DNA from: Gemmobacter fulvus
GTDB lineage: Bacteria > Pseudomonadota > Alphaproteobacteria > Rhodobacterales > Rhodobacteraceae
Direction: 5' to 3'
Assembly: GCF_018798885.1 (NCBI RefSeq)
Contig: NZ_CP076365.1
Location: 62,001-126,000, forward strand
Length of the DNA stretch: 64,000 bases
Shown here: positions 9,702 to 56,224 of the stretch, in pieces
Numbering within the stretch: the first letter of the stretch is position 1
How the letters are laid out: each line of letters begins with the position of its first letter
Position numbers and translations under genes: made by a program
The notes under the pieces: generated by a model
What the model was told of the DNA's origin: nothing
What the model saw: the letters and a program-made list of their open reading frames with translations, nothing else
Database searches by the model: none

Positions 9702-9900
9702 CTGTCATACTGGTGGAAAGCGGGTGATCGCCACGCGTGCCAGATTGCAGTTTCGCCATTGGCAGACATTTATGCTTTGCCTTGACAGGCGAACAGAAAA
9801 TCTGGGATGCCTTTGGGCATGGGGATGCGCGACCTCCCCACGAGGCGTCAGCTGAAGATCGCGTTCCACTCCTGTCCATCTTTTCCGAGGGGGAACGCAG
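9702..9900. promoter_or_regulatory. Leader of the chromate resistance operon
   Basis: About 200 bases between the relaxase and chrB-like genes. A TTGACA at about 9780-9785 could serve as a -35 element, but the -10 match downstream is poor. No separate chromate-responsive regulator gene is present. Confidence 0.3.
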
Positions 9901-36674: not shown

Positions 36675-36804
36675 ATCCGGTCTCCTGAATGAATCGGGCA
36701 CCCTCAAAGGCGGCGTGGCGCCCTGTAAATATCAATTTGCGATAGAGGAATGAGACCAGACCGGCGGGCCTTCTGTCAACTGGCCACACCGGTCATCGGG
36801 ATCG

Positions 36805-37407: not shown

Positions 37408-37814
37408 GATGTGGCTCCTTTGATGCACAGACACGGGCGTCGCGCCGATGGCGCGCAAACACGGGCGTCCCGTCCTGATAGCGGCCCGGCAGGGCAGCGT
37501 CCATCCCGCCGGGGACCGGGGGGCGACGCTGCCGCATGACCGGCCCTGCCAGCGGCAATCCCCCGGCCCACATTGACGCTTGGACCCAATCTGCCTAGAG
37601 AAAGCCTGCTAGAGAAGGCCTGCGCCACGAATCCCGGGATGAAGATGCAGAACGATTGCCCTGTTTCCGCTTTTGTCCCCATGCCCGCCGCGTGCCCTGC
37701 CGGGGTATTGGCCGGGTGCGGGACCGCAGGTTCCGTCTCATCCTCCTTCTGGCTCCGCCGCGCTGCGCCTTGCCATCCCGTATCCAAGCCATCCCGTATC
37801 CAAGGAACCCGCAT
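37408..37814. promoter_or_regulatory. Divergent intergenic region (about 400 bases)
   Basis: Separates the unknown 200-aa gene and the pyruvyltransferase-fusion gene and must hold promoters for both. The sequence contains a near-direct repeat (CATCCCGTATCCAAG twice at about 37770-37805). No other element was recognised. Confidence 0.4.
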
Positions 37815-40430: not shown

Positions 40431-42241
40431 CGCAAGACCGCCAGCCCGCGCCCTTCCACGCGCTGCAACCTGCGATCTGGCCCGAGGTCGGCATCTCCAC
40501 GGAAACCGCGCCCTATCTGGGGCTGACGGGGCCCTGTGCCACCTCGCTGGACCATGGCGGGGTGATCTTCGCGCCGGGCGGGGCGGTCATGGTGGATGGG
40601 TATTTCAACCTGTTCAACCTGAGCAAATGGCGCGACTGCTGTGGTGAGATGCCACTGTCGCTGCAATTGCGCGGGCGCGGGCGGTTCCAGCTGACGGTCT
40701 GGCTGGCCAGCCGCGAACGCTCGTGGGAGCGCATCCATTGCGAGCCGGTGAGCATCGAGGGCGATCTTGTGCTGCCGCTTGATCTGTCGGCAGCGACCCT
40801 GCCACGCATGCTGCTGTTCTTCGAGCTGGTCGCGCTGAGCGAGGGGGCGCTGGAGGATTTCGCCTGGGGCACGCCGATGCCGCCGCGCCAGACCCCCGAT
40901 CTGATGCTGTCGGTCACCACCTTCCGGCGCGAAGCCGAGGTGGCCGATACCGTGGCGCGCTTCCGCCGCTTCCGCGCCACCTCGCCCCTGCGCGACCATC
41001 TGCGCATGCTGGTGGTGGACAATGGCCAGTCGGTGACGATTGCGCCGGGCGACGGCGTCAGCCTCCTGCCCAATGCCAATCTGGGCGGCGCAGGCGGCTT
41101 TTCGCGGGGCCTGCTGGAGGCGCGCGCCACCGGGGCCAGCCATTGCCTGTTCATGGATGACGATGCCTCGGTGCATATGGGGGCCTTCACCCGCACCTGG
41201 ATGCTGCTGGCCTATGCCACCGATCCGCGCGTGGCGGTGGCGGGGGCGATGATCAATGCCGATTACCGCTGGCAGATCTGGGAAAACGGCGCGGTCTTTG
41301 ACGGCGGCTGCCGGCCCCTGTTCCATGGCACCGACCTGCGCAACCGGGTTTCGGTCTTCGAGATGGAATTCGACACCACCGGCCCGGCCCCTGCGGGCCA
41401 TTATGCCGGCTGGTGGTTCTTTGCCTTTCCGGTGGACCGGGCAGAGCACATGCCCTTCCCCTTTTTCGTGCGCGGCGATGATGTCAGCTTCTCGCTGGCC
41501 AATGAGTTCCGCTGCGTGACGCTGCCTGGCGTGGCCTCGTTTCAGGAAAGCTTCACCGACAAGGCGGCCCCGCTGACCTGGTATCTCGACCTGCGCAGCC
41601 ATCTGGCGCATCACCTGAGCCTGCCCGCCAAGCAGATCGGCTGGCGACGGCTGATGCGGATGGTGGCGAGCTTCTATCTGCGCACCGTGCTGCGCTTCCA
41701 TTACGACAGCCTGTCGGCGGTCAACCTCGCAATGGAAGACGCGCAGCGCGGACCGGCCTTCTTTGCCGAACATGCCGATATGGCGACCCGGCGGCAGGAT
41801 CTGAAGGCGCTGACCGTGACCGAGGCCTGGCAGACGCTTGACCCGCGCGCGCCGCGGCCCGGGATCCGCCATGGCCGGTTGTCGCGCTGGCAGCGAGCGG
41901 TGCTGCTGCTGACGCTGAACGGTCATCTGCTGCCCTTTGCCAACCGCTTCGGCAGCGATCTGGTGATCGAGGCCGCCCATCGCGAGAACCACCGCGAGGT
42001 CTATGGCGCGCGGCAGATCACCTATCTGAACGCGCCCCGCACCGCCACCTATACGGTCAGGCGCGACCGCCGCCGCTTCTGGGCGGAAAGCCTGCGCCTG
42101 ATGAAGAACTGCCTTGCGCTGCGCCGCAATCAGGCCCGGTTGCAGGCCGAATGGCAGGGCAGCTATGCCGACATGACCTCGGAACGCTTCTGGCAGGACA
42201 AGCTGGGGATCGCCGACGAAAGGCGTGATGCCGCCCAATGA
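40427..42241 (+). CDS. GlfT2-like GT2 glycosyltransferase
   Basis: A 604-aa enzyme built like mycobacterial galactofuranosyltransferase GlfT2: an N-terminal beta-sandwich (about 20-140), a GT-A domain with LVVDNG, NLGGAGGFSRG and the metal-binding FMDDDASV (D244-D246), the acceptor/catalytic-base region FVRGDDVSF (D351-D352) and conserved tryptophans GWWFF, and a C-terminal helical part. It starts with GTG overlapping the upstream stop (GTGA). A galactofuranosyl or related transfer to a surface glycan is inferred; donor specificity cannot be read directly. Confidence 0.83.
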   Translation: MTQDRQPAPFHALQPAIWPEVGISTETAPYLGLTGPCATSLDHGGVIFAPGGAVMVDGYFNLFNLSKWRDCCGEMPLSLQLRGRGRFQLTVWLASRERSWERIHCEPVSIEGDLVLPLDLSAATLPRMLLFFELVALSEGALEDFAWGTPMPPRQTPDLMLSVTTFRREAEVADTVARFRRFRATSPLRDHLRMLVVDNGQSVTIAPGDGVSLLPNANLGGAGGFSRGLLEARATGASHCLFMDDDASVHMGAFTRTWMLLAYATDPRVAVAGAMINADYRWQIWENGAVFDGGCRPLFHGTDLRNRVSVFEMEFDTTGPAPAGHYAGWWFFAFPVDRAEHMPFPFFVRGDDVSFSLANEFRCVTLPGVASFQESFTDKAAPLTWYLDLRSHLAHHLSLPAKQIGWRRLMRMVASFYLRTVLRFHYDSLSAVNLAMEDAQRGPAFFAEHADMATRRQDLKALTVTEAWQTLDPRAPRPGIRHGRLSRWQRAVLLLTLNGHLLPFANRFGSDLVIEAAHRENHREVYGARQITYLNAPRTATYTVRRDRRRFWAESLRLMKNCLALRRNQARLQAEWQGSYADMTSERFWQDKLGIADERRDAAQ

Positions 42242-43425
42242 CAGCCGCCCCCTCCGACCCGAAGGAAAGTCAGAACCGCATGTCCTCTGCAGAGAAACAG
42301 CTTGTCATCCACATCGGTGATCCGAAAACCGGCACCTCGTCGATCCAGCGGGCCCTGCAGAACGACCTGATCACCAGCCGGAACGGCAAGGTTTCGGGCT
42401 TCATCAGCGGCAGGAGCAGCGCCAATGCCGTGACCGTGGCGCGCGGCTTCCACGGCCGTGATCCCGAGCGGGTCCGGGCTGCCATGAAACAGCTGGCACC
42501 CTGGATCGCCACGGCCCAGGCAGAGTTTCTGGTCCTGTCTTCGGAGTTCTTCATCGACGCGACACCCGGGGTCCTGAAGCGGGCCTTTCTGCGGCGGCAC
42601 CCGAGCCTGGCCGCGGATATGCAGGTCATGGCCTACGCCCGCCCGCATGTCGGGCGCACCCTGTCTGCCTATGCCGAACGGGTTAAATGCGGCTATACGC
42701 TCAGAAGCTTTTCCGACTGGCTGCCCCATTTCATCGCAGATGGATCGCTGAACTATTCCACCCGGTTCCAGAAATGGCGCGAGGCCTTTGGCGATGGCTT
42801 TATCCTGCGACCCTTCCTGCGCGAGGAGTTGCGGAATGGCGATGCGGTCGCCGATTTCTTCAGCATCGTCACCGGAGACCCGGAGGTTGCCGTTGGCAAT
42901 CTGCCACATGAAAATCAGACGCTGAGCCTGCGGGCGCTGGCGGGGTTGCGTGCCTTCAACCGTTACATGAACGAGGCCGGCATCCAGGGACGGCAGCGTA
43001 TCCCGCTGTCGCGCAGCATCGCCCGGGCCGTGACGCCGCACCCGCTCGACAGCAAGCCGGAGCTCGATCAGGACAGTCTCACCCTGATCGCCCGGACTTG
43101 CGCCGCCGACGCTCAGGCACTGGACGCAGCCTATTTCGGGCGCCCGGTCTTTGCCCCGGCGCTGGAGCAGATGACCACTCGGGCGGCAGGCAAACCGCTC
43201 GATCTGGCGCTGGATGCCTATTTCAGCCCGGCAGAACAGGCAGAGATGATGCAGCATGCCAGTGCCGTTCTGGGACTGCTGGGCGCGGACTGGGGCCGTT
43301 GGCACGAATACTATGCCAACACGCGCGCACAGCTGAATCTGGGCCTGCCCGTGAACGCCAAAGGCGGAGGCCAGATCCAGGCGCATCTGAGCGATCTGGG
43401 GCGGCTGTTCAGCCTGCCTGTCTGA
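42238..43425 (+). CDS. Sulfotransferase-like protein
   Basis: A 395-aa protein whose N-terminus has the PAPS 5'-phosphosulfate loop pattern IHIGDPKTGTSSIQ and a later Arg-containing VMAYARPHVGRTLSAYAE stretch corresponding to the 3'-phosphate loop of sulfotransferases. The remainder is divergent. Four-base overlap with the glycosyltransferase gene puts it in the same translational unit, so it may sulfate the glycan built by that enzyme. An internal ATG at 42280 is a possible alternative start. Confidence 0.72.
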   Translation: MTAAPSDPKESQNRMSSAEKQLVIHIGDPKTGTSSIQRALQNDLITSRNGKVSGFISGRSSANAVTVARGFHGRDPERVRAAMKQLAPWIATAQAEFLVLSSEFFIDATPGVLKRAFLRRHPSLAADMQVMAYARPHVGRTLSAYAERVKCGYTLRSFSDWLPHFIADGSLNYSTRFQKWREAFGDGFILRPFLREELRNGDAVADFFSIVTGDPEVAVGNLPHENQTLSLRALAGLRAFNRYMNEAGIQGRQRIPLSRSIARAVTPHPLDSKPELDQDSLTLIARTCAADAQALDAAYFGRPVFAPALEQMTTRAAGKPLDLALDAYFSPAEQAEMMQHASAVLGLLGADWGRWHEYYANTRAQLNLGLPVNAKGGGQIQAHLSDLGRLFSLPV

Positions 43426-43740
43426 GCGTCGCTCGCGCGGTCAGGCCTGCCCGTGATATTGGCATGCAAATCTTCCTGAAGCGCGCGGCTTCCATGTGAT
43501 CTTGGTGAACGCACGCTACACCAAGAATGAGCCGGGGCGCAAATCCGGCATAATGTTTCATGCTGCGCTTCCTTCCTGATGCTTGTGTCTGCTTCATAGA
43601 GACCACGATGTACAATCAGCTCAAAGCGCAGCACCTCCACGAACGTCAGCGTTGAGAATGGGGCGCAAGCCGAATACCCCATCTGCTAGGGGCGTTGCGC
43701 AATTGCAGCCTAGGGCGTGACCTCCCTTTTCCCGCCGGTT
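43426..43740. other. Non-coding spacer after the glycan-modification operon
   Basis: About 315 bases of lower coding quality with short frames on both strands and no recognised gene or clear terminator. The next stretch is a transposase remnant, suggesting this region is an old insertion scar. Confidence 0.4.
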
Positions 43741-43908
43741 TCAGAACACGCGAACGATTTCGGCAGTGCTGATCGCTGAAAAGCGGCTCATCAGTGCGAC
43801 GCGGATCTGGATTTCGGCGGTTTGGTGGTGGGAGTCTCTTGCGCTGATGCGCTCACCGAAGGCGTTGAGGCACAGCACTATGCCTCGATCCGGCTCTTGC
43901 ATGGTATC
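43741..43908 (-). pseudogene. C-terminal remnant of a transposase
   Basis: A minus-strand frame reads MQEPDRGIVLCLNAFGE, then RISARD...QTAEIQIRVALM, and ends ...TAEIVRVF at a TGA (43743-43741). This is the look of a conserved DDE-transposase C-terminus found in many Rhodobacterales IS copies; I cannot name the IS family with certainty. No upstream catalytic region and no inverted repeat remain. Confidence 0.45.
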
Positions 43909-43948
43909 CTGTTCAGTGCTTCCAGAACGCCCCTTGGTCGCCGAAGGA

Positions 43949-44710
43949 TTAGCTGGACGTCAGGTGTGAGAAGTCTATCATCTCATCCGTGCTCAGGAAG
44001 GTCTGGCGGCGCAGCACCTCGTCGCGGCTCATCCAATCGCGGAATCTTTCGGCAACCACCCCACGCGGCGGAGCGTTCCTGCGATGCATGGCCGAAAACT
44101 CCATCACGGCCAGAAGGCGAAGGGCCAGAAATTTTTCCTTGCGACTGTCCATTGCCATGTCTTGGCGCGCACCCTGTGGCGATGATGGCGCAGGAAGCCA
44201 GTCGCAGCCCGGCCCGTCGCCGTCTGTCTCGTTGCTGACAAGATACCTGCGCGCGATCAAAAGACGCACCGCTCCCCCCAGTTTCCTGTGTCCTGCGGCA
44301 TGGGCCTGCAGCATTTGCGCCACTTGCTGGCGCAGCGCAACGGGCCGCTCCGGCTCTGGCATCGACAGGGTGTCGCGCAGGCGGATCGCGCCACCACTGG
44401 CGGTTGCCACAAAAGGCAGCAACCGGGTGGCTAGCGGACGATACCCCGAGGCAAAGCGCCCCGATGCGTCAAACGCCGGGCGCCGCAAGGTCTCGGACCG
44501 CAGATCCGCCATCAGGGTCAGATCGCCCTCCTCGTCGCGCACCACCAGTGGAAAGTGCCGCGCAATCTGATAAAGCTCGGTCAGCACGACCGGACAGGCG
44601 CGCAGATGGTGCAGGCGATCATCAAAGGCCCGGTCCGGCCAGGAGGCCAATGCGCCATCCGACAGCGGATCGGCCCCGGTCACGCCGGGAAATACCTCGA
44701 ACCATTTCAC
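43949..44710 (-). CDS. SapC-family-like protein (second of pair)
   Basis: A 253-aa protein whose N-terminal part (CPVVLTELYQIARHFPLVVRD) follows the SapC-family pattern, while the C-terminal 100 residues are divergent and rich in Arg and Gln. The start overlaps the upstream SapC gene by four bases. SapC was first noted in S-layer protein export loci, but its biochemical role is not settled. Divergence from a type I secretion operon suggests a part in secretion or modification of the cargo. Confidence 0.6.
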   Translation of the reverse strand: MKWFEVFPGVTGADPLSDGALASWPDRAFDDRLHHLRACPVVLTELYQIARHFPLVVRDEEGDLTLMADLRSETLRRPAFDASGRFASGYRPLATRLLPFVATASGGAIRLRDTLSMPEPERPVALRQQVAQMLQAHAAGHRKLGGAVRLLIARRYLVSNETDGDGPGCDWLPAPSSPQGARQDMAMDSRKEKFLALRLLAVMEFSAMHRRNAPPRGVVAERFRDWMSRDEVLRRQTFLSTDEMIDFSHLTSS

Positions 44711-45399
44711 GCCGCAGTTCCTTCTGCTGCCGCGATCAGGCGGCCCATCGTGTAAAGCGACATCCGCTGCGCAGCCAGAAAGCGCGCGGTCAGGGGCCAG
44801 TGTTCATACGGAATATCTTCGAAGATCAGGGCGTCGTCAGGGAAGGGCAGCACGACGAAAAAGTCGGGCAGATCGTATTTCGCAACGATTTCATCCGGCA
44901 GAACAACGGGTTCGATCAGGCCGTGGCGAAAGACGGCGGCCGTCAGGCGCAATCGGGTGTCGGCATCTGCCTGAAAGGCCTCCAGCGCCCCGAGCTTCAT
45001 TTCCGCCCCCGGCAGCAGATTGCCCTGCGGATCGTGAATGTAAGATCCGGCATCCCCCTCCCGCATCGGGGCGGACTGGTCCACCCCGATCTCCGTGCCG
45101 CGTGCTGTGTCCCGAAACCGAAAGGGGAAGGCCTGCAGCAACAGCGGCAGCGCCAGCCGACTTTGCGCCCGAGCGCCCGGAATTTCCGCCTTTGCGTCCA
45201 GCCCCCGCAGCACGACAAGCTCCGGGTCGCCATGCAGATCGCGCCGCCAGATCACTGGATAACGTTCGGCAAGTGGCAGCGCTTCGGACAGGCTGATTGG
45301 CACAATGCGTTCATAAAGTGCGGGCCGATAAGAAAACGGATCATAAATCCGCAGCGCCGCGCGCGTCGCCGTGTCCCAACTTTCATAGGCCATGTACAT
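44707..45399 (-). CDS. SapC-family protein (first of pair)
   Basis: A 230-aa protein with full-length SapC similarity: IVPISLSEALPLAERYPVIWRRD near residues 30-52, LPLLLQAFPFRF in the middle, and the C-terminal GLIEPVVLPDEI and RFLAAQRMSLYTMGRLI. No signal peptide. Divergently transcribed from the type I secretion ABC gene, with about 55 bases between the start codons. A truncated paralogue of the first 60 residues is present at 48690-48881, in the same position relative to an ABC fragment. Confidence 0.8.
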   Translation of the reverse strand: MYMAYESWDTATRAALRIYDPFSYRPALYERIVPISLSEALPLAERYPVIWRRDLHGDPELVVLRGLDAKAEIPGARAQSRLALPLLLQAFPFRFRDTARGTEIGVDQSAPMREGDAGSYIHDPQGNLLPGAEMKLGALEAFQADADTRLRLTAAVFRHGLIEPVVLPDEIVAKYDLPDFFVVLPFPDDALIFEDIPYEHWPLTARFLAAQRMSLYTMGRLIAAAEGTAA

Positions 45400-45454
45400 G
45401 CTTGTAACTCACCTGCAGTTGTGATCCCTGAACCTGTACATTTTGGGAAGATGC

Positions 45455-47161
45455 ATGAAGGTCTCTTCTGTAATTCATAAATCTCGCGGTAGCTATGTGC
45501 GAATCTGGGGGCAAAGCATATTCAGTGCCGTGCTTGCACTCAGCCCGTTCCTCTACATGATGCAGGTGACAGAGCGCGTTTATTCCAGCCGGAGCTGGGA
45601 AACGCTGGGATTCATCACGGTGCTGACTGTCTTTTTGATGATCGTCTGGGCGGTTCTCGATCATTTTCGTGCCAGTGCCTTGTTTGCCGTCGGGCATAGA
45701 ATTGACCATGAGTTGCGCGAAGGAGTGTTTGACGCGGTGCATCGCGGCAACAAGCCGGAGGCATTCCGCGCCTATGGCGACATCACAACGGTGCAGCAAG
45801 GCTTGACGGGGCCTCTGATCGAGGCGGCGATGGATGCCTCGCTCTCGCCGATCTACATCGTCATCCTGTTCCTGCTGCATCCCGCTTTCGGCTTCATCGC
45901 GATCGGCTATATCTTGCTGCTCGCCGTGCTGAGCAGCCGGTCCAAGTCCATCTGGCAGCGGGTCCGCGCGGAATCGCGCGAACATGAGGACCGGGCCTTT
46001 TCCTTCGGCCTGGCAACGGCGACACGGCGCGAGACGATCCGCGCGATGAACATCCTGCCGGGCGTGCGGCGCGAATGGTCGGGTCTGGAAAACAAGGCCT
46101 CAGGCATCCTGCTCCGGGGGCAGACCACGGCCAACAGGATCGACAGCGTCATCAGCCTGCTGCAACAGGGCCAGATGGTCATCCTGATCGGGGCGGGTGC
46201 AGTGCTTTATCTGCTGGATGCGGCCTCGGTGAATGCCGGCATGGCCGCCTTCATCGTGATGATGCGCGGAGTAAACCCTGTGGTCTCGGTGGCGCGCAAC
46301 TGGTCCATGATCAACGATGTGCGCAGCGCCATACAGCGGCTCGACATCGTGCTGGCCGATGTGCCCGCCGATGCCACGACCCTGCTGCCCGAGATGCAGG
46401 GCCAGGTGTCATGCGACAATCTGGTGGTCATGGGAACGGACGGAAAACCCGTGCTGTCCGGCATCCGCTTCGATGTTCCGGCGGGCTCTGTCGTCGGCAT
46501 TGTCGGGCCTAGCGGGGCGGGCAAATCGACGCTGCTGCGCATGTTGTCGGGCGCGGGGCGTCCGTCATCGGGTAGCGTGAAGATCGACGGTTTTCCCCTG
46601 CATCAATGGCCCGAGGCGCAGCGCGGCCCGGACATCGGCTATTTGCCGCAATCGGTGGATCTACTGCCCGGCACTATCATGCAGAATGTCACGCGCTTTG
46701 GCCCGGTGACCGACGCGCAGGCTATCGCGGCCTCCGAGGCATTGCGCCTTGCCGGGGCGCTCGACATCGTTCAGGCCCGTGGGCGCGGTCTGGACTTCCG
46801 CCTGCAAGAGGACGGGGCGCCGCTGTCGGGCGGGCAACGTCAGCGCATCGGGCTGGCGCGCGCACTCTATGGCCAGCCGAAGGTGCTGGTACTGGACGAA
46901 CCGAACTCGGCGCTGGATGCGGCAGGCGAAAAGACCCTGCTGGAAAGCATTACTGCCGTCAGCCAGCGGGGGACCACGGTGTTCTTCAGCACCCACAAGG
47001 TCAACATGCTGGGGATCTGCGACTACATCCTGGTGATCATGGATGGTTACATGCATTCGTTCAGCACACGGGAAGACATGCTGCGCCGCCTGACCGTGGC
47101 CGGAAACCCGCTGCTTTCCAATGGCCGTGCCGATCACCCCAACGGCGAGGCCCGGGTATGA
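45455..47161 (+). CDS. Type I secretion ABC transporter (PrtD/HlyB family)
   Basis: A 568-aa ABC exporter half-transporter. Membrane domain residues 1-300 (LALSPFLYMMQVTERVYSS is the typical first segment of PrtD-type proteins). Nucleotide-binding domain: Walker A GPSGAGKST (about 351-359), signature LSGGQRQR (about 457), Walker B VLVLDEPNSALD and H-loop FSTHK. The ATG at 45455 with GGGA six bases upstream is chosen because the truncated paralogue begins at the same point; a TTG at 45443 is a weaker start. Likely cargo are the RTX proteins of this island. The outer-membrane TolC partner is not in the window. Confidence 0.92.
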   Translation: MKVSSVIHKSRGSYVRIWGQSIFSAVLALSPFLYMMQVTERVYSSRSWETLGFITVLTVFLMIVWAVLDHFRASALFAVGHRIDHELREGVFDAVHRGNKPEAFRAYGDITTVQQGLTGPLIEAAMDASLSPIYIVILFLLHPAFGFIAIGYILLLAVLSSRSKSIWQRVRAESREHEDRAFSFGLATATRRETIRAMNILPGVRREWSGLENKASGILLRGQTTANRIDSVISLLQQGQMVILIGAGAVLYLLDAASVNAGMAAFIVMMRGVNPVVSVARNWSMINDVRSAIQRLDIVLADVPADATTLLPEMQGQVSCDNLVVMGTDGKPVLSGIRFDVPAGSVVGIVGPSGAGKSTLLRMLSGAGRPSSGSVKIDGFPLHQWPEAQRGPDIGYLPQSVDLLPGTIMQNVTRFGPVTDAQAIAASEALRLAGALDIVQARGRGLDFRLQEDGAPLSGGQRQRIGLARALYGQPKVLVLDEPNSALDAAGEKTLLESITAVSQRGTTVFFSTHKVNMLGICDYILVIMDGYMHSFSTREDMLRRLTVAGNPLLSNGRADHPNGEARV

Positions 47162-48555
47162 ACGTCGTAAACCTGCCAAGCGCCGCCCCAACCAGCCGCC
47201 CGTCCGCAGCCACAGGACCGTTGCACCCGCATCCGTCCACCGCACCACAGACTACGATCGAAACCTGCGACCGGCAGTTGCAGCGCTCGCTCCGGGCCTC
47301 AGCCATCACGATCCTGCTCTGTTTCGGGTTGGTAGGGGGCTGGCTTGCCGTCGCCCGGCTCGACAGCGCCGTCGTCACCAGTGGCGTTCTGGAAAATGCC
47401 AATACCACCCGACAGATACAGCATCTTGAGGGTGGAATCGTGCGCGAGATTTTTGTGCGCAGCGGTGATCAGGTGAAAGCGGGCGATCTACTGCTGAGGC
47501 TTGATCCAACGGAAAGCGCCGCCACCGCAGAGCTGTTCGATACACAGATCCTCGGCAGCCGGGCCCGGCAGGAACGGCTGGAGGCCGAACTGCGCATGGC
47601 GGATACGCTGACATTCAGCCCCGCCCTCGTCGCGCAGCTTGCGGCTGATCCAGCGATCGCCCGCGTTGCAGAAAACGAAATCCAGCGATTCGACATCCAG
47701 CGCAGTGAACTGCTTCAGGCGCGTAACCTGCTGCAGACCAATATCGCGCAGGCCGAAGAAGAGATCCGTGCCAACACCGTGCGCCGCAGCATCGCTGAAC
47801 GTGAGACAGTGCTTGTGAAAGCCGATCTTGCCGATCAGAAAAGCCTGCTAGAACGGGGGCTGACCAGTCAGACGCGTGTGACCCAACTGGAACAGGCCAG
47901 CCTGACGCTGGAAGAAAAGATCGCTCAGGCGGATATCGAAATTGCCCGCATCCGGCAGTCGATCATCGGGTTCCGTCTGCAGATGACCCAGCTGGAACAG
48001 GAATATCGCAGCCGTGCCGCCGAGAATCTAGAACAGGTTTCCACCGAGATTCGCTCGCTGGAACGCGATGCCATCATCGCGACGGATTCGCTGAACCGGG
48101 TCGAAATCCGTTCACCGGTCGATGGCACGGTGCAGGAAAGTATTCTGGGCACCATTGGGGCAATTGTGCGCGGCGGCGACACGATCATGAAAATCGCCCC
48201 GGCCGAGGCAGATTACATCATCGTCACGCGCGTTTCGCCCAATGATATTGACGGTCTGCTGCCGGGATCGGACGCGCTCATTACCTTTCCTGCCTTCCAG
48301 CTGCTGAGCCTGCCCCCCGCCGAGGGCGAGTTGCTGACCCTGTCGCGCGACCGCGTTGTCGATCCTGTCACCCGTACCGATTATTACGAGGCGCGGGTCC
48401 GGCTGGACGAGGCCACCTTGCCGGATGAACCGCGCGAACGGCTTGTCGCCGGGATGTCAGCGACGACCATCCTGCCGACAGGCAAGCGCACCGCGCTCAA
48501 CTATCTGGTCGGCCCTATGCTGCGCCGGTTCCAGTCCGCGATGCGTGAGGAATGA
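47158..48555 (+). CDS. Type I secretion membrane-fusion protein (HlyD/PrtE family)
   Basis: A 465-aa adaptor: cytoplasmic N-terminal 60 residues, one TM helix (about 47-65, ITILLCFGLVGGWLAV), a lipoyl half-motif (HLEGGIVREIFVRSGDQVKAGDLL), long helical hairpin (about 120-310), second lipoyl half (VEIRSPVDGTVQ) and beta-barrel C-terminus. The start overlaps the ABC stop (ATGA). Bridges the ABC exporter to an outer-membrane channel. Confidence 0.92.
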   Translation: MNVVNLPSAAPTSRPSAATGPLHPHPSTAPQTTIETCDRQLQRSLRASAITILLCFGLVGGWLAVARLDSAVVTSGVLENANTTRQIQHLEGGIVREIFVRSGDQVKAGDLLLRLDPTESAATAELFDTQILGSRARQERLEAELRMADTLTFSPALVAQLAADPAIARVAENEIQRFDIQRSELLQARNLLQTNIAQAEEEIRANTVRRSIAERETVLVKADLADQKSLLERGLTSQTRVTQLEQASLTLEEKIAQADIEIARIRQSIIGFRLQMTQLEQEYRSRAAENLEQVSTEIRSLERDAIIATDSLNRVEIRSPVDGTVQESILGTIGAIVRGGDTIMKIAPAEADYIIVTRVSPNDIDGLLPGSDALITFPAFQLLSLPPAEGELLTLSRDRVVDPVTRTDYYEARVRLDEATLPDEPRERLVAGMSATTILPTGKRTALNYLVGPMLRRFQSAMREE

Positions 48556-48595
48556 ACCTGTCCGACCTGCCCACAGAACTCCCCGAGAGAACATG

Positions 48596-48690
48596 ATGTA
48601 TGAAAAGCTGGAACTCTCACCCCAGGTCTTCTGACGCTGCGCTATGCTAAGCCCGCAGCGGACGAGGCAAATGCGGTGGTCCGGGCGATT
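48596..48690 (+). pseudogene. 5' fragment of a second copy of the 254-aa unknown gene
   Basis: Begins MYEKLELSP and, after a one-base frame change, continues GLLTLRYAKPAADEANAVVR. This aligns with MYETVKLQPGLLTLTF...ADALIRP at the start of the intact gene at 49173. The unshifted frame stops after 12 codons. It directly follows the membrane-fusion gene, which is presumably the original location of this gene type, and breaks off where a truncated SapC copy on the other strand begins. Confidence 0.75.
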
Positions 48691-48881
48691 GGGCATCTCG
48701 CTGCGCAGCACCAACAGCTCAGGGTCGCCATGATCGTCCGCTCGCCTTCGGTCAGGTGCGAGTTTTCCGAAAGGCAAACCGGCACGATGCGCTCGTGGAG
48801 GGCAGGACGGTAGGCGAATGGGTCATAAATCCGCAATGCAGCGCCCGTCGCCTCCTCCCAGCGATCAAATGTGCTGTACAT
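48690..48881 (-). pseudogene. Truncated, frameshifted second SapC-family copy
   Basis: The 48881 start reads MYSTFDRWEEATGAALRIYDPFAYRPALHERIVPVCLSE in two near-identical blocks to the intact SapC gene (ALRIYDPF.YRPAL.ERIVP). After LTEGERTI the frame shifts: HGDPELLVLR continues in another frame and matches HGDPELVVLR of the intact copy. Similarity ends at about 48690, at the junction with the broken copy of the unknown gene. Only about one quarter of the gene remains. Confidence 0.8.
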
Positions 48882-48937
48882 GCTTGTTTCCGGCTTCCAA
48901 CTGTGGTCCCTGACCCCGAATTGACTCAGGAACGCTT

Positions 48938-49180
48938 ATGATGACGGTTTCCCCTGTATTCCAGAACGCCCGCGGCAGCTATGTGCGGATCTGCGTGCAC
49001 AGCATCTTCATTGCCTTGCTGGCGCTGAGCCCGTTCCTTTACCTGATACAGGTGACCCAGCGTGTCTATACCAGCCACAACTGGGAGACGCTGGGATTCA
49101 TCACCGCCCCGATCGGTTTTCTGATGCTGGTCTTGGGGATAACCGCGAGAGCGGTGCCAGAGGGCCAAACCCATGTATGA
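48938..49180 (+). pseudogene. N-terminal fragment of a second type I secretion ABC gene
   Basis: Reads ...RGSYVRICVHSIFIALLALS then PFLYLIQVTQRVYTSHNWETLGFI, closely matching the first 65 residues of the intact ABC gene at 45455. The similarity ends at about LMLVLG (49135); 15 unrelated codons follow to a stop inside the next gene. The remaining 500 residues and the membrane-fusion partner are missing. It might be translated as an 80-aa two-helix membrane peptide, but it cannot be a transporter. Confidence 0.8.
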
Positions 49181-49937
49181 AACAGTAAAACTGCAGCCGG
49201 GTCTCCTGACACTGACCTTCGTCGCCCCGGCCGAGGGAAGTGCCGATGCGCTGATCCGCCCAGTGGTGATGCCAGCCTCGCGTCAGGCGCTCAGCCTGAT
49301 GTTCGAGGCGGGAAATGTCGCCGGGGCGCTGACCTCGCCAGGCGAATTCTGCGTGATCCGCTGCGGTCGCCCTGCAGTGCTGGGCATCGAGATCAGCGCG
49401 CGTCAGACCGGAGCAATGCCGCGCGGCGGGATCGAACTGAACTACCTGTCGCGCCGCGGCCCCGACCCGGCACCGGACGAAACCACCGGGGCAGATTACA
49501 TCCTGCATCTCGCAGGCCATGGCGATCGCCCGGCAAGCTTCGGCAGCTGGACCGGCGGCGACACACCCGACCAGGCCATCGCTGGGCTGATGATCCGGGC
49601 ACGCACCGGTCGACCGCGCATCGTCGCTCAGGATCCCGCTACCGGGCAGATCGCCCAACCCGGCGATTTTCTGGGCAGCCGGGGCGGCTTCAGGCCGTTT
49701 TCCGAGTTGCAGCTGTGGATCGACGAACCTGACGGGCGCTACCGGTTGGGCGTCGAGGCCGAATTCGCCGAAGCCGGGCGGGTGAGCGCCTCGGGCACGA
49801 TGGTCAGCCTGCACGGCATGAGCACCGGCGACAGGCTACTGCGTCTGAGGATGGTGCTAGAGCAGATGTCGGCTGACAGCGAAAAGCGCGCAACCGCACG
49901 TCGCAACGACCGCATCCGAATCTTCCGCAAAGGTTGA
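49173..49937 (+). CDS. Unrecognised 254-aa protein linked to type I secretion locus
   Basis: A soluble-looking protein, no signal peptide or TM helix, beta-rich with many Gly/Pro/Arg residues and an amphipathic, Arg-rich C-terminal helix (LRMVLEQMSADSEKRATARRNDRIRIFRKG in two parts). GAGGG eight bases before ATG 49173 supports the start. A decayed second copy begins 42 bases after the membrane-fusion gene, so this gene type is an original part of the SapC-ABC-HlyD cassette. A role in cargo recognition or regulation of export is conceivable; no family is recognised. Confidence 0.7.
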   Translation: MYETVKLQPGLLTLTFVAPAEGSADALIRPVVMPASRQALSLMFEAGNVAGALTSPGEFCVIRCGRPAVLGIEISARQTGAMPRGGIELNYLSRRGPDPAPDETTGADYILHLAGHGDRPASFGSWTGGDTPDQAIAGLMIRARTGRPRIVAQDPATGQIAQPGDFLGSRGGFRPFSELQLWIDEPDGRYRLGVEAEFAEAGRVSASGTMVSLHGMSTGDRLLRLRMVLEQMSADSEKRATARRNDRIRIFRKG

Positions 49938-50204
49938 ACTCTTGCAGGCCGAAACAGGAGAGGCTGATGACCTCCCGATCCTCGACTACATCTTTGAACT
50001 CGGCTCAACTATTCAGCGCAAGCATATAATTTTTGCTTCTTTGAAAGAAAAGAGCCTCTTAGAGCAACTCAGGCCTTCTTGATCTTGTTACCAACGGCTG
50101 CTAGCAAGAGAATATTGTTTGTGAATCCTCTTCACAGTGTTTTTGGCTGAGTTCAGTCATCCAGGACGAGTATTCCAACGCAATCATTTGTGGAGATAAC
50201 GCCC
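49938..50204. promoter_or_regulatory. AT-richer leader of the RTX gene
   Basis: About 265 bases, distinctly lower in GC than the flanks, with A/T-rich tracts around 50010-50060 and 50110-50145. It should hold the promoter of the RTX gene. No well-spaced promoter consensus could be assigned by eye. Confidence 0.45.
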
Positions 50205-51467
50205 ATGTCCTCATCCGAATACAGTTCACTTGAAGACGTCGGGGAAGGCCTCGACGATCTTGGGTTGAATGAAGCGCAGATCAACAGCATCCTCAGCAAG
50301 CTGCCGGATGACGAAGATCTCACTGTCTCAATCGTAGGCCCAGGCGAAGAGCCGGATCCAGATGCCGACCTTATCGTGCGGCAGACCGGCAGTGGCATGG
50401 TCGTGATTCGCGTCCCGGGATACCAAGACAAAACTGTGATTGGGTCGTCGGAAGGCGACAGCATCGTCGGTGGTGGCGGTGAAGACACCCTGATCGGAGG
50501 CGAAGGCAAGGATCTGATTGCAGGCGGCGAGGGTGATGACACTGCCTTGGGCGGTGGTGGCAACGACAAGCTTGCAGGCGGTCAAGGCAACGACAAGCTT
50601 GCAGGCGGTGATGGCAAAGACACTCTCATAGGCGGTGATGGCAAAGACACTCTCATGGGCGGTCAAGGCGATGACATGCTCTATGGCGGGGTTGGCAGCG
50701 ACATGCTCTATGGCGGTAGCGGTAGCGACACGCTCTATGGCGGTAGCGGTAGCGACACGTTGAATGGCGGTAGTGGCCATGACACGCTCTTCGGCGACGG
50801 CGGCAACGACAAGCTTGCAGGCGATGAGGGTGACGATACGCTTGGTGGCGGTGATGGCAACGACAAGCTTGCAGGCGGTGATGGCAACGACAAGCTTGCA
50901 GGCGGTGATGGCAAAGACAAGCTTGCAGGCGGTGATGGCAAAGACACTCTCATGGGCGGTCAAGGCGATGACATGCTCTATGGCGGGGTTGGCAGCGACA
51001 TGCTCTATGGCGGTAGCGGTAGCGACACGCTCAATGGCGGTAGCGGTAGCGATACGTTGAATGGCGGTAGTGGCCATGACACGCTCTTCGGCGACGGCGG
51101 CAACGACAAGCTTGCAGGCAATGAGGGTGACGATACGCTTGATGGCGGTGGGGGCAAAGACACTCTCATGGGCGGTCAAGGCGATGACATGCTCTATGGC
51201 GGCGCTGGCAGCGACACGCTCAACGGCGGCGACGGCAGCGACTTGCTCTATGGCCGCAGCGGCAACGACACGTTCAGTGCAGGAGCAGGCGATACCGTTT
51301 ATGGGGGCGCGGACGATGATACTGTCACGCTCAATGCCAACTTCGACGATGTCAGCATCCAGACGGTCGGCGCAAAGACGCTTATCACCTTCTCGGATGG
51401 TAGCTTCGTCACGGTGTCCGGCGTTGAACATCTCAACTTCAACGACGACAAAGACATCGATCTGTGA
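50205..51467 (+). CDS. RTX repeat protein, probable type I secretion cargo
   Basis: A 420-aa acidic protein. Residues 1-80 form a short N-terminal part; about 85-365 consist almost wholly of some 30 tandem GGxGxDxLxGG nonapeptides (calcium-binding beta-roll); the last 55 residues end in [10 protein letters not shown], a typical uncleaved type I signal. No catalytic domain is present, so it is a structural, adhesive or matrix-type surface protein. ATG 50205 with GGAG ten bases upstream is preferred to a GTG at 50190. A SapC-ABC-HlyD exporter lies just upstream and two glycosyltransferases follow. Confidence 0.88.
50641..51147 (+). repeat. Higher-order DNA repeat inside the RTX gene
   Basis: A segment of about 210 bases beginning GCAAAGACACTCTCATGGGC at 50641 recurs at 50938, offset by 297 bases (99 codons, 11 nonapeptides), with only a few substitutions. 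A third partial copy starts near 51152. Between them are shorter GGTGATGGCAA-type units. Such near-identity at DNA level implies recent duplication or gene conversion. Confidence 0.85.
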
Positions 51468-51478
51468 ACCTGATCTTT

Positions 51479-51511
51479 CAGCCGCCCGAGATATTCGGGC
51501 GGCTGTTCTCT
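51479..51511 (+). terminator. Strong hairpin after the RTX gene
   Basis: CAGCCGCCCGA and TCGGGCGGCTG form a perfect 11-bp stem with a GATAT loop, followed by TTCTCT, 11 bases after the RTX stop. The glycosyltransferase gene begins 20 bases further on, so this may attenuate rather than abolish read-through and set a high RTX to enzyme ratio. Confidence 0.75.
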
Positions 51512-51531: not shown

Positions 51532-53358
51532 ATGAGCAAGACGTCTGGACAACTGAGTCCTTTCCAAACCGTAGATCGGCTGGTGGCCCTTCAGACAGCG
51601 CTGCACGATTCTGCAGCGTCTTCGGCTTTTATCGAGAGGGCCATGCTTCTGCAAAGCCTCGGCTATGTCGGACTGGCGCGGATCGATGCGCGCCATGCCC
51701 ACCGGCTTGATCCATCGAGCCCTGATGCTATGGTGCTGTTTTGCAGTCTGGGCGCAGCGCGAGATGACCCCTCGGACACCCATGATATCGCGACAGCTCT
51801 ACTGAACAGCCCCTTCGCCAGCTCAGCAGAGCGGCGACTGGCGCTGGTCGCGCTTGACCCCAAGCGAATGCCACTGCTGCTGCACCAAAACTTGGCCCTG
51901 AACGTGCGGCTGACTCTGCTGCAGCGGCAGGGTGACAGCATTGCGCTGGAAGGCATCGGACCGGACGACCGGGTCGAGGCACTGGGTCAAGCTGGCCGCC
52001 ACGGGATCGTTGCACTGGATTGCCATGTCGCACGCCCTGCCACCGGATCACGTCACCTGACCGTTCTGTCCGACGGCGGCACCGCGCAGCTGATCAACAT
52101 CGACGCTCCGGCGTCACCGCAGCCACTGCCCGCCCCCAAGGGCCGTGCTCGTGCACGACTATGGATAGTCATACCTCTGAAGGATGGCGGCACGATACTG
52201 GCGCGTTGCCTACAGTCGGTTCTGGACAATCTTCACCGACTGCGCGGTGCGCGGCTCATACTGGTCGACGACGGATCTGAGCTGCCCGAGACACAACGGC
52301 TTCTGGCCGATTGCGCCCAACACCCGGGCGTCAGTGTAACCCGGACACCGGAAACCCTTGGCTTTACCGGCGCAGTCAATCATGGACTGCGACAGATTGG
52401 CTCTGGCCCGGTCCTGTTGCTGAATTCCGATACTTGGTTGCCGCGGCAAACCCTGCCCCGCCTGCTGGCCCATCTGCGTGCGCCCGAAGTGGGAACCGTC
52501 ACGCCGCTATCAAACAATGCTGGTTCGGTCTGCCTATTGGGACCAGGGAAAGCCGCGCTCATGCCGGATCCAGCGATCTGCGATCGTCTTGCCGCGGCGG
52601 CTTCCCGGCACAACCGCGGCCTCACCATCGATCTGCCCAGCGGTAACGGCTTTGCCATGCTGATCTCCGAGCCTTGTCTGCGCGCCATCGGTCCACTGTC
52701 GGGCCTTTATGACAGCGGATATTACGAAGAGGTCGATTTCTGCCTGCGCGCCACTTTGCGCGGCTGGCGGCATGTTGCGGCGACGGATTGCTTCGTCGGC
52801 CATGCCGGTTCGGTTACTTATGGTGGCGAAAAGCACCGGCTGGCTACCGCGAACTACCGTCGGCTGGTGCAGCGTTTTCCCGAGTATCCGGCGCTTTACA
52901 AACGCTTCGCGGCACTCGATCCGCTGGCCGCGCCAAGGGCACGGTTGCTGACAGCCACTGCTGCAGATTGGACGCCCGAGGCCCGGACGGACACGCCCCC
53001 ACATCCCGGCAACGGGCGGATGACCCTCCCCCTCCCCCCCCAAGGGCCACTGGTCCTACCTTTGCAGGGCGAGGTGCCGAGCACACTGCGACGCCACCGA
53101 TTCCGCTTGCTGCGGCTCGCGCCGACCAAGGTACTCCATGCCTGCGGGCTGAGGCTGGAGCCGGGGCATGACCTCATAGCAGAATACGATGCGGCGACGG
53201 GACTACTTCTGATTCGCCTCGGCCCGACGGGAAAACCACTGGCCGATTTTGCCTGCACCGGCGCCTCGGCCTCTGATTTAGCGGATCTCGAGACGACGCT
53301 TCTCGAAATCCTGGCCAGAAGAGCCGAAGCAGGAGGGAAACATGCCGTTCCTGTCTGA
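51532..53358 (+). CDS. Large GT2-family glycosyltransferase with helical N-terminal region
   Basis: A 608-aa protein. Residues 20-130 are helical and TPR-like; a GT-A domain (about 208-450) has IVIPLKDGG, LILVDDGSE, the DXD-like LLLNSDTW and YYEEVDFCLR motif of GT2 enzymes; the C-terminal 130 residues are beta-rich. It overlaps the next glycosyltransferase gene by 17 bases. Position right after an RTX gene suggests modification of a secreted glycan or glycoprotein. Donor and acceptor are unknown. Confidence 0.85.
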   Translation: MSKTSGQLSPFQTVDRLVALQTALHDSAASSAFIERAMLLQSLGYVGLARIDARHAHRLDPSSPDAMVLFCSLGAARDDPSDTHDIATALLNSPFASSAERRLALVALDPKRMPLLLHQNLALNVRLTLLQRQGDSIALEGIGPDDRVEALGQAGRHGIVALDCHVARPATGSRHLTVLSDGGTAQLINIDAPASPQPLPAPKGRARARLWIVIPLKDGGTILARCLQSVLDNLHRLRGARLILVDDGSELPETQRLLADCAQHPGVSVTRTPETLGFTGAVNHGLRQIGSGPVLLLNSDTWLPRQTLPRLLAHLRAPEVGTVTPLSNNAGSVCLLGPGKAALMPDPAICDRLAAAASRHNRGLTIDLPSGNGFAMLISEPCLRAIGPLSGLYDSGYYEEVDFCLRATLRGWRHVAATDCFVGHAGSVTYGGEKHRLATANYRRLVQRFPEYPALYKRFAALDPLAAPRARLLTATAADWTPEARTDTPPHPGNGRMTLPLPPQGPLVLPLQGEVPSTLRRHRFRLLRLAPTKVLHACGLRLEPGHDLIAEYDAATGLLLIRLGPTGKPLADFACTGASASDLADLETTLLEILARRAEAGGKHAVPV

Positions 53359-55579
53359 CCTTACCTTTACCGAACCCGGCCTGTTGCGGGGCCATGTCCT
53401 ACTGGACAGCCAACCGGACCGGCAATGGCATGTCGGGCTCTTCGTGAATGGTCGGCTACTGGGCGCCACACCGGCCGATCTGCCCGTCGATCTGGACTGC
53501 AACCCCGGCTGGATCGGTGAGCACGGTTTTCGCTTCAGCCTCAATCCAAGGGCACTACAAGATGTAGATGTGCTGCGGGTCGAAGTACTCAACGCGGGTC
53601 ACATCATTTTCGAACACGAATTCCTGAACCTACGCAAAACCACCAGCCCGGTCATTCGGGGGCCGGGATCTTTGCGTCACGCGCGCGGACTAATGCTCAG
53701 CGGAACGGTTGAGAACGGCGTCACCGACCTGCCCTCCTACGAGATCCTCGCCATGGAGGGCGACCGGATCGTCGGGCGCTGCCGGGTCAACCGCTGGGAG
53801 CACATCGGCAACCCGCAAGATCCACTGGGCCGTGCCGCCGCGTTCGACCTACATCTTGATTCCGATCTGGCCGACGGGCAGATGCATCGGCTGCATGTTG
53901 AAACCTCGACTGGTATCGTGCTGGAGGGCAGCCCGGTCGATGTGATCGCCTGGCCGAACCGTCTGCGTGCGGGGCTGATCGCCGCCGCTTCTGGCAACAC
54001 ACCTGCCCATGCCCGCCGGGCCGAGGCCATGCTCGACCGACTTCTGGGGCTGGGTATGCCGCTATCGGCCTATACCGCCCTTTATCCCGAGCTGGCTGCC
54101 CCCCCTCGCCCGCCAGCGGCGGATGGCCGGATCGGCGAGGACGGCACTTGGTTCCGTCTGGGTGGCACCGGCTGGGTTCTATGCTGCCATACGGCGGTGC
54201 ACCCCCTACCCAGCTTCGCCGCACGACTGGCCGACGCCCTACCAACAATGCACGGGGCCAAGGCGGTGTTTTGCGATCTGGCGCTGCGACAAACGGATGG
54301 TATGCTCTGGCCGCTGCTGATGCCCGCATTCGACACCGAGCGGTTGCTGGAACAAGGTCATGCTGCACTGTGCTTCGCCCTACCTGAAGCTGCCCTGTCT
54401 AAAACAGTGCTGCCCGAAGTGGAGCCGCCCTCGCTAGTGGCGCTGCTGCTGGATCATCTGGCACCTAGAGGCGGCATGCCGGACATGACTGGCTTGTGGC
54501 ACCTGCCTCATCCTGGCGGATGGGCCGAAGAGGCGGCGTTGGCAACGACCTGCGTGTCGCGCACCCAAGCGCTGAATACAGCACTGCGCCAGCCCGGGCG
54601 CCTGCCTGCTGACAGCAGGATCATCACAACCCCGCCGCGCGCAGGCGCGTTGTTTCCCACACTGCATCTTCACCGGCCAGTGGAAGACCGCGCCGTCAGC
54701 GTGATCGTACCGACCCGCAACCAAGGGCCAATGCTGAAAGCCGCTGTCACCGGCCTGATCGCCGCTAATCCGGGATTCGATCTGGACGTGATCGTGGTCG
54801 ATAATGGCTCGAACGAAGCCGAGAGCCTTGAGGTGTTGAACGAGCTCGAGGATGGCGGCGCGCGCATCCTCGAATTCGGCGAGGGGTTCAACTTTTCGCT
54901 GATCAACAATCTGGCCTGCGACCATGCCCGCCATGCGCAGCTTTGCTTCATGAACAACGACGTAGCCTTTCCTTGGCCCGGAGTTCTGGACGAGTTGTGC
55001 AGTCGGCTGGCCGACCCCGGTGTCGGGGCGACGGGACCGCTGATGCTGCGCGCCTCCGACATCATCCAGCATGGCGGCGTAGTTCTGGGTCCCTGGCACG
55101 GCGCCGTCCATGCCTTCGAGGACAGGATGCTGGGGGATCCAGGCTATGGCGAGCTGCTTTGCGCCGCATCGGAACCTGCGGCGGTGACCGGCGCCTTCCT
55201 GCTGACGCGGCGGGCACTGTTCGAGGGGCTTGGTGGATTTGACACCACGCGCTTCTCGGTGAATTTCAATGATGTTGATTACTGCCTGCGGCTGCGGCAG
55301 GCCGGCTACAGGATCGTGCTATCGCCGCATGCACGAATCCGCCACTTCGAATCTGTCAGCCGCGGGCGCGAGAAGGGTAACCCAGCTGGGCTGCGCCTGC
55401 AGCGCGAACTGGCGTGCCTGCGCGATATCTGGCGCGAGACGGTGCTGAACGACCCGCAATATCACCCGCTGTTCGCCCCAGATGCCTTGCCCTATCGTGC
55501 ACTGTCTCTGGAGCACCGCGACCCCGCGCCGCGCCGCGCCTGGTGCTGGCAGCCCGCTAAGCTGCCCCACTGGGCTTAA
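53342..55579 (+). CDS. Large GT2-family glycosyltransferase with beta-rich N-terminal region
   Basis: A 745-aa protein. AGGAGG five bases before ATG 53342 sets the start. The N-terminal 220 residues are beta-rich with two related modules (about 8-100 and 115-205). A GT-A domain (about 445-690) shows VSVIVPTRNQ, VIVVDNGS, CFMNNDVAF and NFNDVDYCLRL, as in rhamnosyl-type WbbL/GT2 enzymes. The middle part (about 220-440) is unassigned. Probably the partner of the preceding glycosyltransferase. Confidence 0.85.
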   Translation: MPFLSDLTFTEPGLLRGHVLLDSQPDRQWHVGLFVNGRLLGATPADLPVDLDCNPGWIGEHGFRFSLNPRALQDVDVLRVEVLNAGHIIFEHEFLNLRKTTSPVIRGPGSLRHARGLMLSGTVENGVTDLPSYEILAMEGDRIVGRCRVNRWEHIGNPQDPLGRAAAFDLHLDSDLADGQMHRLHVETSTGIVLEGSPVDVIAWPNRLRAGLIAAASGNTPAHARRAEAMLDRLLGLGMPLSAYTALYPELAAPPRPPAADGRIGEDGTWFRLGGTGWVLCCHTAVHPLPSFAARLADALPTMHGAKAVFCDLALRQTDGMLWPLLMPAFDTERLLEQGHAALCFALPEAALSKTVLPEVEPPSLVALLLDHLAPRGGMPDMTGLWHLPHPGGWAEEAALATTCVSRTQALNTALRQPGRLPADSRIITTPPRAGALFPTLHLHRPVEDRAVSVIVPTRNQGPMLKAAVTGLIAANPGFDLDVIVVDNGSNEAESLEVLNELEDGGARILEFGEGFNFSLINNLACDHARHAQLCFMNNDVAFPWPGVLDELCSRLADPGVGATGPLMLRASDIIQHGGVVLGPWHGAVHAFEDRMLGDPGYGELLCAASEPAAVTGAFLLTRRALFEGLGGFDTTRFSVNFNDVDYCLRLRQAGYRIVLSPHARIRHFESVSRGREKGNPAGLRLQRELACLRDIWRETVLNDPQYHPLFAPDALPYRALSLEHRDPAPRRAWCWQPAKLPHWA

Positions 55580-55612
55580 TCTTTTTTACACTCTCTCCCC
55601 ACAGGCCAGCCG

Positions 55613-56224
55613 ATGTCCATACCACGCACCCTCTACAACCTCGGCTCCGGCCCCCGGCGTCTCTTCGACCTGCTGCCCGATGCTCCGGCCTTCGCAGGCT
55701 GGCAGGAGGTGCGGGTAGATGTCGACGCCGCCTGCAGGCCCGACATCCATGCCGATCTAACCGATCTGCAGCAGGTCATCCCCGACGGGACGGCCGGGAT
55801 AATCTATTGCTCGCATGTGATTGAACATTTCTTCGACCACGACGTGCCGAAGGTTCTGGCCGAATGCGCGCGTATCCTGCACCCCGACGGGGCGGCGGTG
55901 CTACGGCTGCCCGATCTGGCGGCGGTGGTACGGGCCTTCGACGAAGGCGATATTGAGCGCCCCCTCTACCATTCGCCCTCCGGACCGATCGCGGCGCTGG
56001 ATGTGATCTATGGCCACCGCAGGTCAATCGAAGATGGTAACCCCTTCATGGCACATCGCACCGGATTCACCGAGGCTTCGTTGGCACGGCGGATGCTCGC
56101 GGCGGGCTTCGAAGAGGTACAGACCGTCCCCGGCCCCTCGGTCGAATTCTGTGCGGTGGCAACCCGGCGCCCGACGGCCTTTCAGGCCCAGATCGATGCG
56201 CTGCTGTCCTTCGTCAACCCCTGA
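55613..56224 (+). CDS. SAM-dependent methyltransferase (class I)
   Basis: A 203-aa enzyme of the predicted-SAM-methyltransferase group common in glycan clusters: LNLGSG-like YNLGSGPRR motif I, VDVDAACRPDIHADLTD motif and IIYCSHVIEHF motif. The insertion YHSPSGPIAALDVIYGHR is usual for this group. Last gene of the glycosyltransferase operon; probably O-methylates a sugar or glycosylated protein. Confidence 0.85.
   Translation: MSIPRTLYNLGSGPRRLFDLLPDAPAFAGWQEVRVDVDAACRPDIHADLTDLQQVIPDGTAGIIYCSHVIEHFFDHDVPKVLAECARILHPDGAAVLRLPDLAAVVRAFDEGDIERPLYHSPSGPIAALDVIYGHRRSIEDGNPFMAHRTGFTEASLARRMLAAGFEEVQTVPGPSVEFCAVATRRPTAFQAQIDALLSFVNP

Follow-up and report, generated by a model that had tools for sequence, protein, structure and literature searches.

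How did broken pieces of a secretion cassette come to lie between two intact genes of the same cassette? The question is raised by positions 48556-49180 of the window (the whole 64,000-nucleotide stretch of Gemmobacter fulvus DNA that was analyzed), which separate the intact gene for an HlyD-type adaptor (HlyD) from an intact gene here called UNK. Below, the intact copy is the intact cassette copy in the window, and the scar, or remnant, is the set of broken pieces between intact HlyD and intact UNK. The left lineage is that of the genes up to HlyD, and the right lineage is that of UNK and the genes that follow it.

Intact Cassette and Flanking Genes

The left, outlying lineage comprises two SapC genes on the minus strand, SapC2 (43949..44710; Pfam SapC PF07277, 4.7e-7) and SapC1 (44707..45399; Pfam SapC, 5.7e-12), and two genes on the plus strand, a type I secretion permease/ATPase gene (ABC; 45443..47161; ABC_tran, 3.2e-31) and HlyD (47158..48555; NCBIfam TIGR01843, 315 bits against a cut-off of 208.65). 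The best NCBIfam match of ABC was the PrtD-type TIGR01842 (E = 7.7e-127), at 424 bits below the cut-off of 510. By family, ABC and HlyD are thus a predicted type I exporter pair, with HlyD above its NCBIfam cut-off and ABC below that of the PrtD subfamily.

The right lineage begins with UNK (49173..49937, plus strand; 254 aa, 85% amino acid identity to Gemmobacter lutimaris), which had no match in Pfam, NCBIfam, or PDB sequences. Its structure model was mostly beta and of low confidence (pLDDT, 61.6), with no Foldseek match at E <= 0.001. Then follow, also on the plus strand, an RTX-repeat protein (50190..51467; HemolysinCabind, 8e-77), which is probably the cargo of the exporter, and two glycosyltransferases with a methyltransferase (51532..56224; identified with Pfam, and syntenic with the G. 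lutimaris locus, L032, at 71 to 83% amino acid identity).

Apart from the scar, the cassette order SapC2-SapC1/ABC-HlyD-UNK-RTX-glycosyltransferase was the same as in G. lutimaris and Paracoccus ravus (L033). In Gemmobacter aquaticus (L034:2397-6191) and genome G301 (L036:9389-13206), the RTX-glycosyltransferase module lay on the SapC side of the cassette; the cargo module, which sits after UNK in the window, L032, and L033, has switched sides in these two. A second RTX-repeat protein of 526 aa is encoded on the minus strand of the window (35127-36707), upstream of glycan genes, and could be the left lineage's own cargo.

Left of SapC2 (37806-43425) are a polysaccharide pyruvyl transferase/nitroreductase fusion, a glycosyltransferase, and a putative sulfotransferase, the last named from a reading of its sequence, without a Pfam hit. 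The fusion gene and glycosyltransferase were also adjacent in genome G303 (L064; 66 to 69%), near a weaker sulfotransferase match (38%). G303 had no SapC match in the stretch examined, no ABC match at E <= 1e-150, and no match to the ABC stub of the scar. The glycan genes at 37.8-42.2 kb are therefore a separable block, since they occur together in G303 without the cassette ABC. Where the window has the putative sulfotransferase, the genes adjoining SapC2 in G. lutimaris (L032:2324-5217) resemble what we take to be the sulfate adenylyltransferase subunits CysD and CysN/C. The left edge of the left-lineage block (43426-43948) had no match in the nine loci searched.

Composition of the Scar

The original prediction named four pieces in a fixed order (a 5' piece of UNK, an inverted SapC fragment, a SapC/ABC intergenic region, and the start of an ABC gene), and DNA alignment to the intact copies, a protein profile, and comparison with other genomes together recovered all four at 48556-49180 in that order. 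The expected alignment of the fragments to the window's intact copies held in part. DNA scores exceeded the maxima of 200 dinucleotide shuffles for the inverted SapC piece (75; shuffle maximum, 29), the ABC piece (171; 29), and the whole stretch (233; 37), and by pairwise DNA alone they were not significant for the UNK piece (27, below a maximum of 31) or the intergenic piece (20, below 28).

The first piece (48596..48688, plus strand; right end approximate) is the truncated 5' part of a second UNK gene, in which two extra bases cause a frameshift. It was recognized with a profile made from seven UNK proteins, the intact one of the window included, and ranked second among 1,633 segments when all six frames of the window were scanned (E = 2e-6; next best, 0.67). 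It has 56 of 95 bases in common with intact UNK and 51 to 61 of 95 with five relatives, and two short pieces compared for affinity to genome G034 gave mixed scores. Its position would assign it to the left lineage.

The other pieces are of the right, G. lutimaris-type lineage. The inverted SapC1 5' remnant (48700..48881, minus strand) lacks 16 nt relative to G. lutimaris (gaps of 4, 4, and 8), and its first 41 codons have 95% amino acid identity to G. lutimaris versus 66% to the window's own SapC1. The retained 56-bp divergent SapC1/ABC intergenic region of the right cassette (48882..48937) is a near-match to L032, with two 1-base gaps and one substitution, and is confirmed by its being alignable with the intergenic regions of other genomes. 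Last comes a 5' stub of ABC (48938..49180, plus strand; 79% amino acid identity to G. lutimaris versus 62% to the window's intact ABC). Predicted to be the first 65 codons of an ABC exporter, it has about 66 homologous codons, with homology ending near 49136-49140, after which the open frame enters the UNK leader and continues up to 49180; its stop codon (49178-49180) gives an overlap with the UNK start of 8 nt. At the deletion junction (49136..49141), ABC codon ~67 is joined to the HlyD stop region. Both sides of the junction align to L032, relative to which ~2.9 kb (7077 to 9966) is absent.

Affinity of the Remnant

In pairwise DNA alignments, the remnant (48700-49140) came closest to G. lutimaris (89.8%; 395/440), followed by P. 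ravus (82.4%), G301 (80.9%), and G. aquaticus (76.7%); the window's own intact copy ranked last (73.8%). In a multiple alignment of 437 columns, it was 87.4% to G. lutimaris and 69.8% to the intact copy. Columns favoring one side numbered 91 for G. lutimaris alone versus 14 for the intact copy alone (sign test, P = 5e-15), 85 versus 38 for P. ravus, 65 versus 31 for G301, and 55 versus 39 for G. aquaticus (P = 0.12, the remnant being not significantly closer to this relative), counts that measure likeness, not descent, and that a fast-evolving intact copy would also raise. The short remnant DNA tree had no starred branch and grouped the remnant with G. lutimaris and P. ravus at 92/97; a pair of remnant and G. 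lutimaris was absent from the best tree and was not rejected (P = 0.39 and 0.41).

These values bear on the tandem duplication in the original prediction, by which the cassette would have been duplicated in this lineage and its second copy would have diverged and decayed. Two tandem copies would account for how the pieces are ordered and oriented, and the remnant's own approximately unbiased (AU) test against pairing with the intact copy was only marginal (P = 0.054 with G034, 0.047 without). Duplicates of this kind would be closer to each other than to the copies of other species, whereas the remnant was nearer another species' cassette than its neighbor (89.8% versus 73.8%), and a copy in decay would not be expected to remain the nearest to a different species.

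Affinity of the Intact Genes

In six-row trees of SapC2, SapC1, ABC, and HlyD, each gene of the intact copy grouped with G034 against the other four rows (95/91 to 97/97). A clade of the intact copy and G. lutimaris was rejected gene by gene (P-AU of 1.2e-4 for SapC2, 0.012 for SapC1, 6.5e-5 for ABC, and 9e-4 for HlyD) and for a concatenation of SapC1, ABC, and HlyD (P-AU = 4e-5). With two more distant outgroups, the concatenation joined the intact copy and G034 at 97/97 and held the other four as one group at 62/57; a split of the left lineage before all four Gemmobacter/Paracoccus cassettes is thus weakly supported.

Identities agreed with the trees. Intact ABC had 69 to 71% amino acid identity to the four relatives versus 79 to 83% among those four, and the window's SapC1 had 66% to G. 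lutimaris, compared with 84% between G. lutimaris and P. ravus. The distant row G034, sole grouping partner of the left lineage, had 64% amino acid identity to the window in ABC. A distant host does not account for the low exporter identity, because a 1,680-base stretch of rpoB from the window genome was 87.9% identical to G. lutimaris (G. aquaticus, 86.4%; G301, 85.7%; 8 of 9 loci used, with the short piece from G304 left out, rpoB having been matched in 9 of 11 genomes).

UNK had a different history. Its best tree placed the window with G. lutimaris at modest support (73/65), and a grouping of the other four without the window was rejected (P-AU = 0.0098). Trees of operon neighbors therefore conflict significantly, the exporter genes rejecting the very clade found in the best UNK tree. 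The genes right of UNK (RTX protein and glycosyltransferases) were syntenic with L032 and closest to it, and the N-terminal 80 residues of the RTX protein were 71% identical to L032 versus 43 to 49% to L033, L034, and L036. Per 150-column window of the alignment, identity to G. lutimaris was 69 to 77% in ABC, 55 to 79% in HlyD, and 80 to 83% in UNK; since no switch was visible inside ABC or HlyD, the lineage change lies within the scar.

Remnant and intact UNK both belong to the G. lutimaris type, and SapC2, SapC1, ABC, and HlyD to another lineage that groups with G034, so neither copy arose from the other within this genome. The predicted tandem duplication is thereby contradicted, and with four intact genes each rejecting the G. 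lutimaris clade while UNK sits with G. lutimaris, we consider a self-duplication very improbable. The accompanying suggestion of two once-distinct exporters is borne out by the lineage difference between the copies.

Proposed Origin of the Mosaic

We propose, with a probability of about 0.8, that two diverged cassettes came together, probably on a plasmid of the RepABC type, and then collapsed into a mosaic by join and deletion. Two diverged SapC2-SapC1/ABC-HlyD-UNK lineages would have been placed head to tail in a Gemmobacter. A first join or deletion would have fused left UNK codon ~31 to right SapC1 codon ~66, and a second deletion, of ~2.9 kb, would have removed the right cassette from ABC codon ~67 through the HlyD stop. 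The survivor would be a mosaic of the left SapC pair, ABC, and HlyD with the right UNK, RTX protein, and glycosyltransferases. To this extent, the earlier view of the order as the leftover of two adjacent cassettes after deletions stands. The right cassette is of the type present in the other Gemmobacter genomes that have the cassette.

The window lies on contig C5 (193,372 bp), which in loci L079 and L080 carries a repABC set at ~54.3-57.8 kb (G000:C5:54300-57800) and a further repC at ~135.7-136.9 kb, beside which no repA- or repB-like open reading frame of at least 200 aa was listed. RepC was identified with Pfam PF03428, and RepA and RepB were identified by reading of the sequences. Because of the repABC set and further repC, C5 is probably a plasmid, and its gene content suggests that it is possibly a composite one.

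Among the genomes searched, the SapC-ABC-HlyD-UNK cassette is rare. The ABC protein was matched in 3 of 394 genomes, own included (E <= 1e-90; family sample of 393 genera), and in 6 of 195 relatives, own included (E <= 1e-150); at the latter threshold, it was also matched in 2 of 4 genomes in the genus of G039, 1 of 2 in the genus of G034, and 1 of 125 in the genus of Paracoccus ravus. The cassette was present in 8 distinct genomes (G000, the window's own, with G034, G039, G405, G295, G300, G301, and G482). Each had one strong ABC match and none had a second among the candidates scored, which in the wide ABC searches were the best 3 to 11 (nearly all or all for G000, G034, G039, and G405; the best 7 to 11 for G295, G300, G301, and G482, where stub searches with all candidates scored agreed in finding one strong match each). 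Two complete cassettes in a related genome, which the original prediction had proposed to look for, were found in none of the 8.

The stub as query matched 10 of 11 genus members at E <= 0.001, with only four genomes, own included, below 1e-20. A search of 295 family genomes with UNK (E <= 0.001) gave four with a match, namely own, G034, G039, and G229, the last match being short and marginal (6e-4). Against genome contigs, UNK matched four loci, in G. lutimaris, P. ravus, G. aquaticus, and a Neomarinimicrobiota metagenome-assembled genome (MAG); the MAG match (L035:2354-2692) was partial, at 30% over UNK residues 11-122, and the other cassette queries were unmatched there. For a donor of ABC, no match above 71% amino acid identity was found among the genomes searched. 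In a plasmid collection, DNA of 43900-51500 gave partial matches only, those listed being mainly to RTX repeats, with no record covering 80% of the query; none of 813 plasmid records encoded a match to the HlyD protein with at least 60% identity. G. lutimaris (L032) and P. ravus (L033), which are of different genera, had 83 to 84% amino acid identity in SapC1, ABC, and HlyD, a likeness that suggests movement of the cassette between genera.

The same distribution bears on the possibility that both cassettes lay side by side in an ancestor and that the other sampled lineages lost the left one. Gene trees alone cannot tell this from transfer, as differential loss could give the same trees. Several separate losses would be needed, however (three or four by our count, if the UNK tree is the history), each of the other seven genomes showed just one strong ABC match, and the left lineage has a single grouping partner, the distant G034 (64% in ABC). 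The cassette also looks mobile (83% in ABC between G. lutimaris and P. ravus) and is found here on a contig with a repC-bearing repABC set. We therefore regard such ancient paralogues as unlikely, and we retain the meeting and collapse of two diverged cassettes.

Possible Function of the Scar

We infer that the mosaic still exports the RTX protein. The retained right divergent region may now drive UNK through the ABC stub, because the region is kept and the stub stop overlaps the UNK start by 8 nt. Compatible with the two-cassette explanation, and rated separately, is the reading that the scar was kept because it is functional, with the divergent region and stub serving as promoter and leader for the UNK and RTX operon, possibly with a small membrane peptide. 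In its favor are the intergenic region, almost unchanged relative to L032, and the stub frame, which is open up to its overlap with UNK. Recency alone would also keep the intergenic region, though, and a simple scan for sigma-70-type promoters over 48400-50300, which expects 0.5 sites by chance, found none. On the remnant branch, the stub has 8 non-synonymous changes and 3 synonymous ones, compared with 2 and 4 on the G. lutimaris branch, a balance that, in small numbers, leans toward loss of constraint. We hold a functional scar to be possible and lean against it.

A stronger version has the scar as a rewired control element. Deletion of the right exporter would have spared the divergent promoter region and a translationally coupled stub and so uncoupled the UNK/RTX operon from the other lineage's exporter; one lineage's transporter would then serve the other's cargo under the cargo's own control. 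We find this version doubtful.

The intergenic region of the scar also contains a box, (C/T)TGTG(G/A)TCCCTG (48901-48913), which was aligned in six copies from five genomes and was absent from G034, G039, and G405. In the window, both SapC1/ABC intergenic regions (45400-45454 and 48882-48937) hold it, and at 0 or 1 mismatch it occurred only in these two. It is possibly a shared regulatory site. The idea of a regulon was rejected, the box at 2 mismatches being found 4 times in the window versus 4.6 expected by chance, and none of 53 loci matched a longer form of the motif with fixed spacing.

Comparison with Known Systems

In the sapCDEF locus of Campylobacter fetus, a SapC-family gene neighbors a type I exporter and a surface protein that is its cargo. 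The cassette shares this grouping of SapC-family gene, type I exporter, and cargo; as far as the C. fetus S-layer locus is described in the available part of its report (PMC4943207), the cassette differs from it in having two SapC genes divergent from the exporter and an extra UNK gene, in having no outer-membrane component among its identified genes, and in its likely cargo, an RTX protein beside glycosyltransferases. No literature on the SapC family (PF07277) with type I secretion or RTX proteins was found in a search that had most subscription papers outside its scope and so is weak evidence of absence. Composite plasmids of the RepABC type, pMM259 among them, are known (PMC5613091, consulted in excerpt); C5 likewise combines a repABC set and a further repC, and a plasmid fusion may have brought the cassettes together.

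The mosaic cassette and its scar look like a case of in situ xenologous displacement, a known kind of event. Mosaic operons formed by in situ (xenologous) gene displacement are known for repABC operons (PMC2783167, which cites Omelchenko et al. 2003). As there, the genes of one operon have conflicting histories with gene order kept. In the sections seen of that paper, the case for displacement was made on an intact operon, from trees in conflict and tests for recombination, and homologous recombination was argued. Here, by contrast, the ends of displaced genes remain as scars, so the joins can be placed, and the first join lies between non-matching genes (UNK to SapC1). Both the joins and the deletion are legible to the base, and they favor juxtaposition with deletion over homologous replacement of one gene by its counterpart. 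Should the mosaic work, ABC and HlyD would be exchangeable across ~30% protein divergence, with UNK and the cargo remaining a matched pair, which yields a testable view of the exporter parts that must co-evolve.
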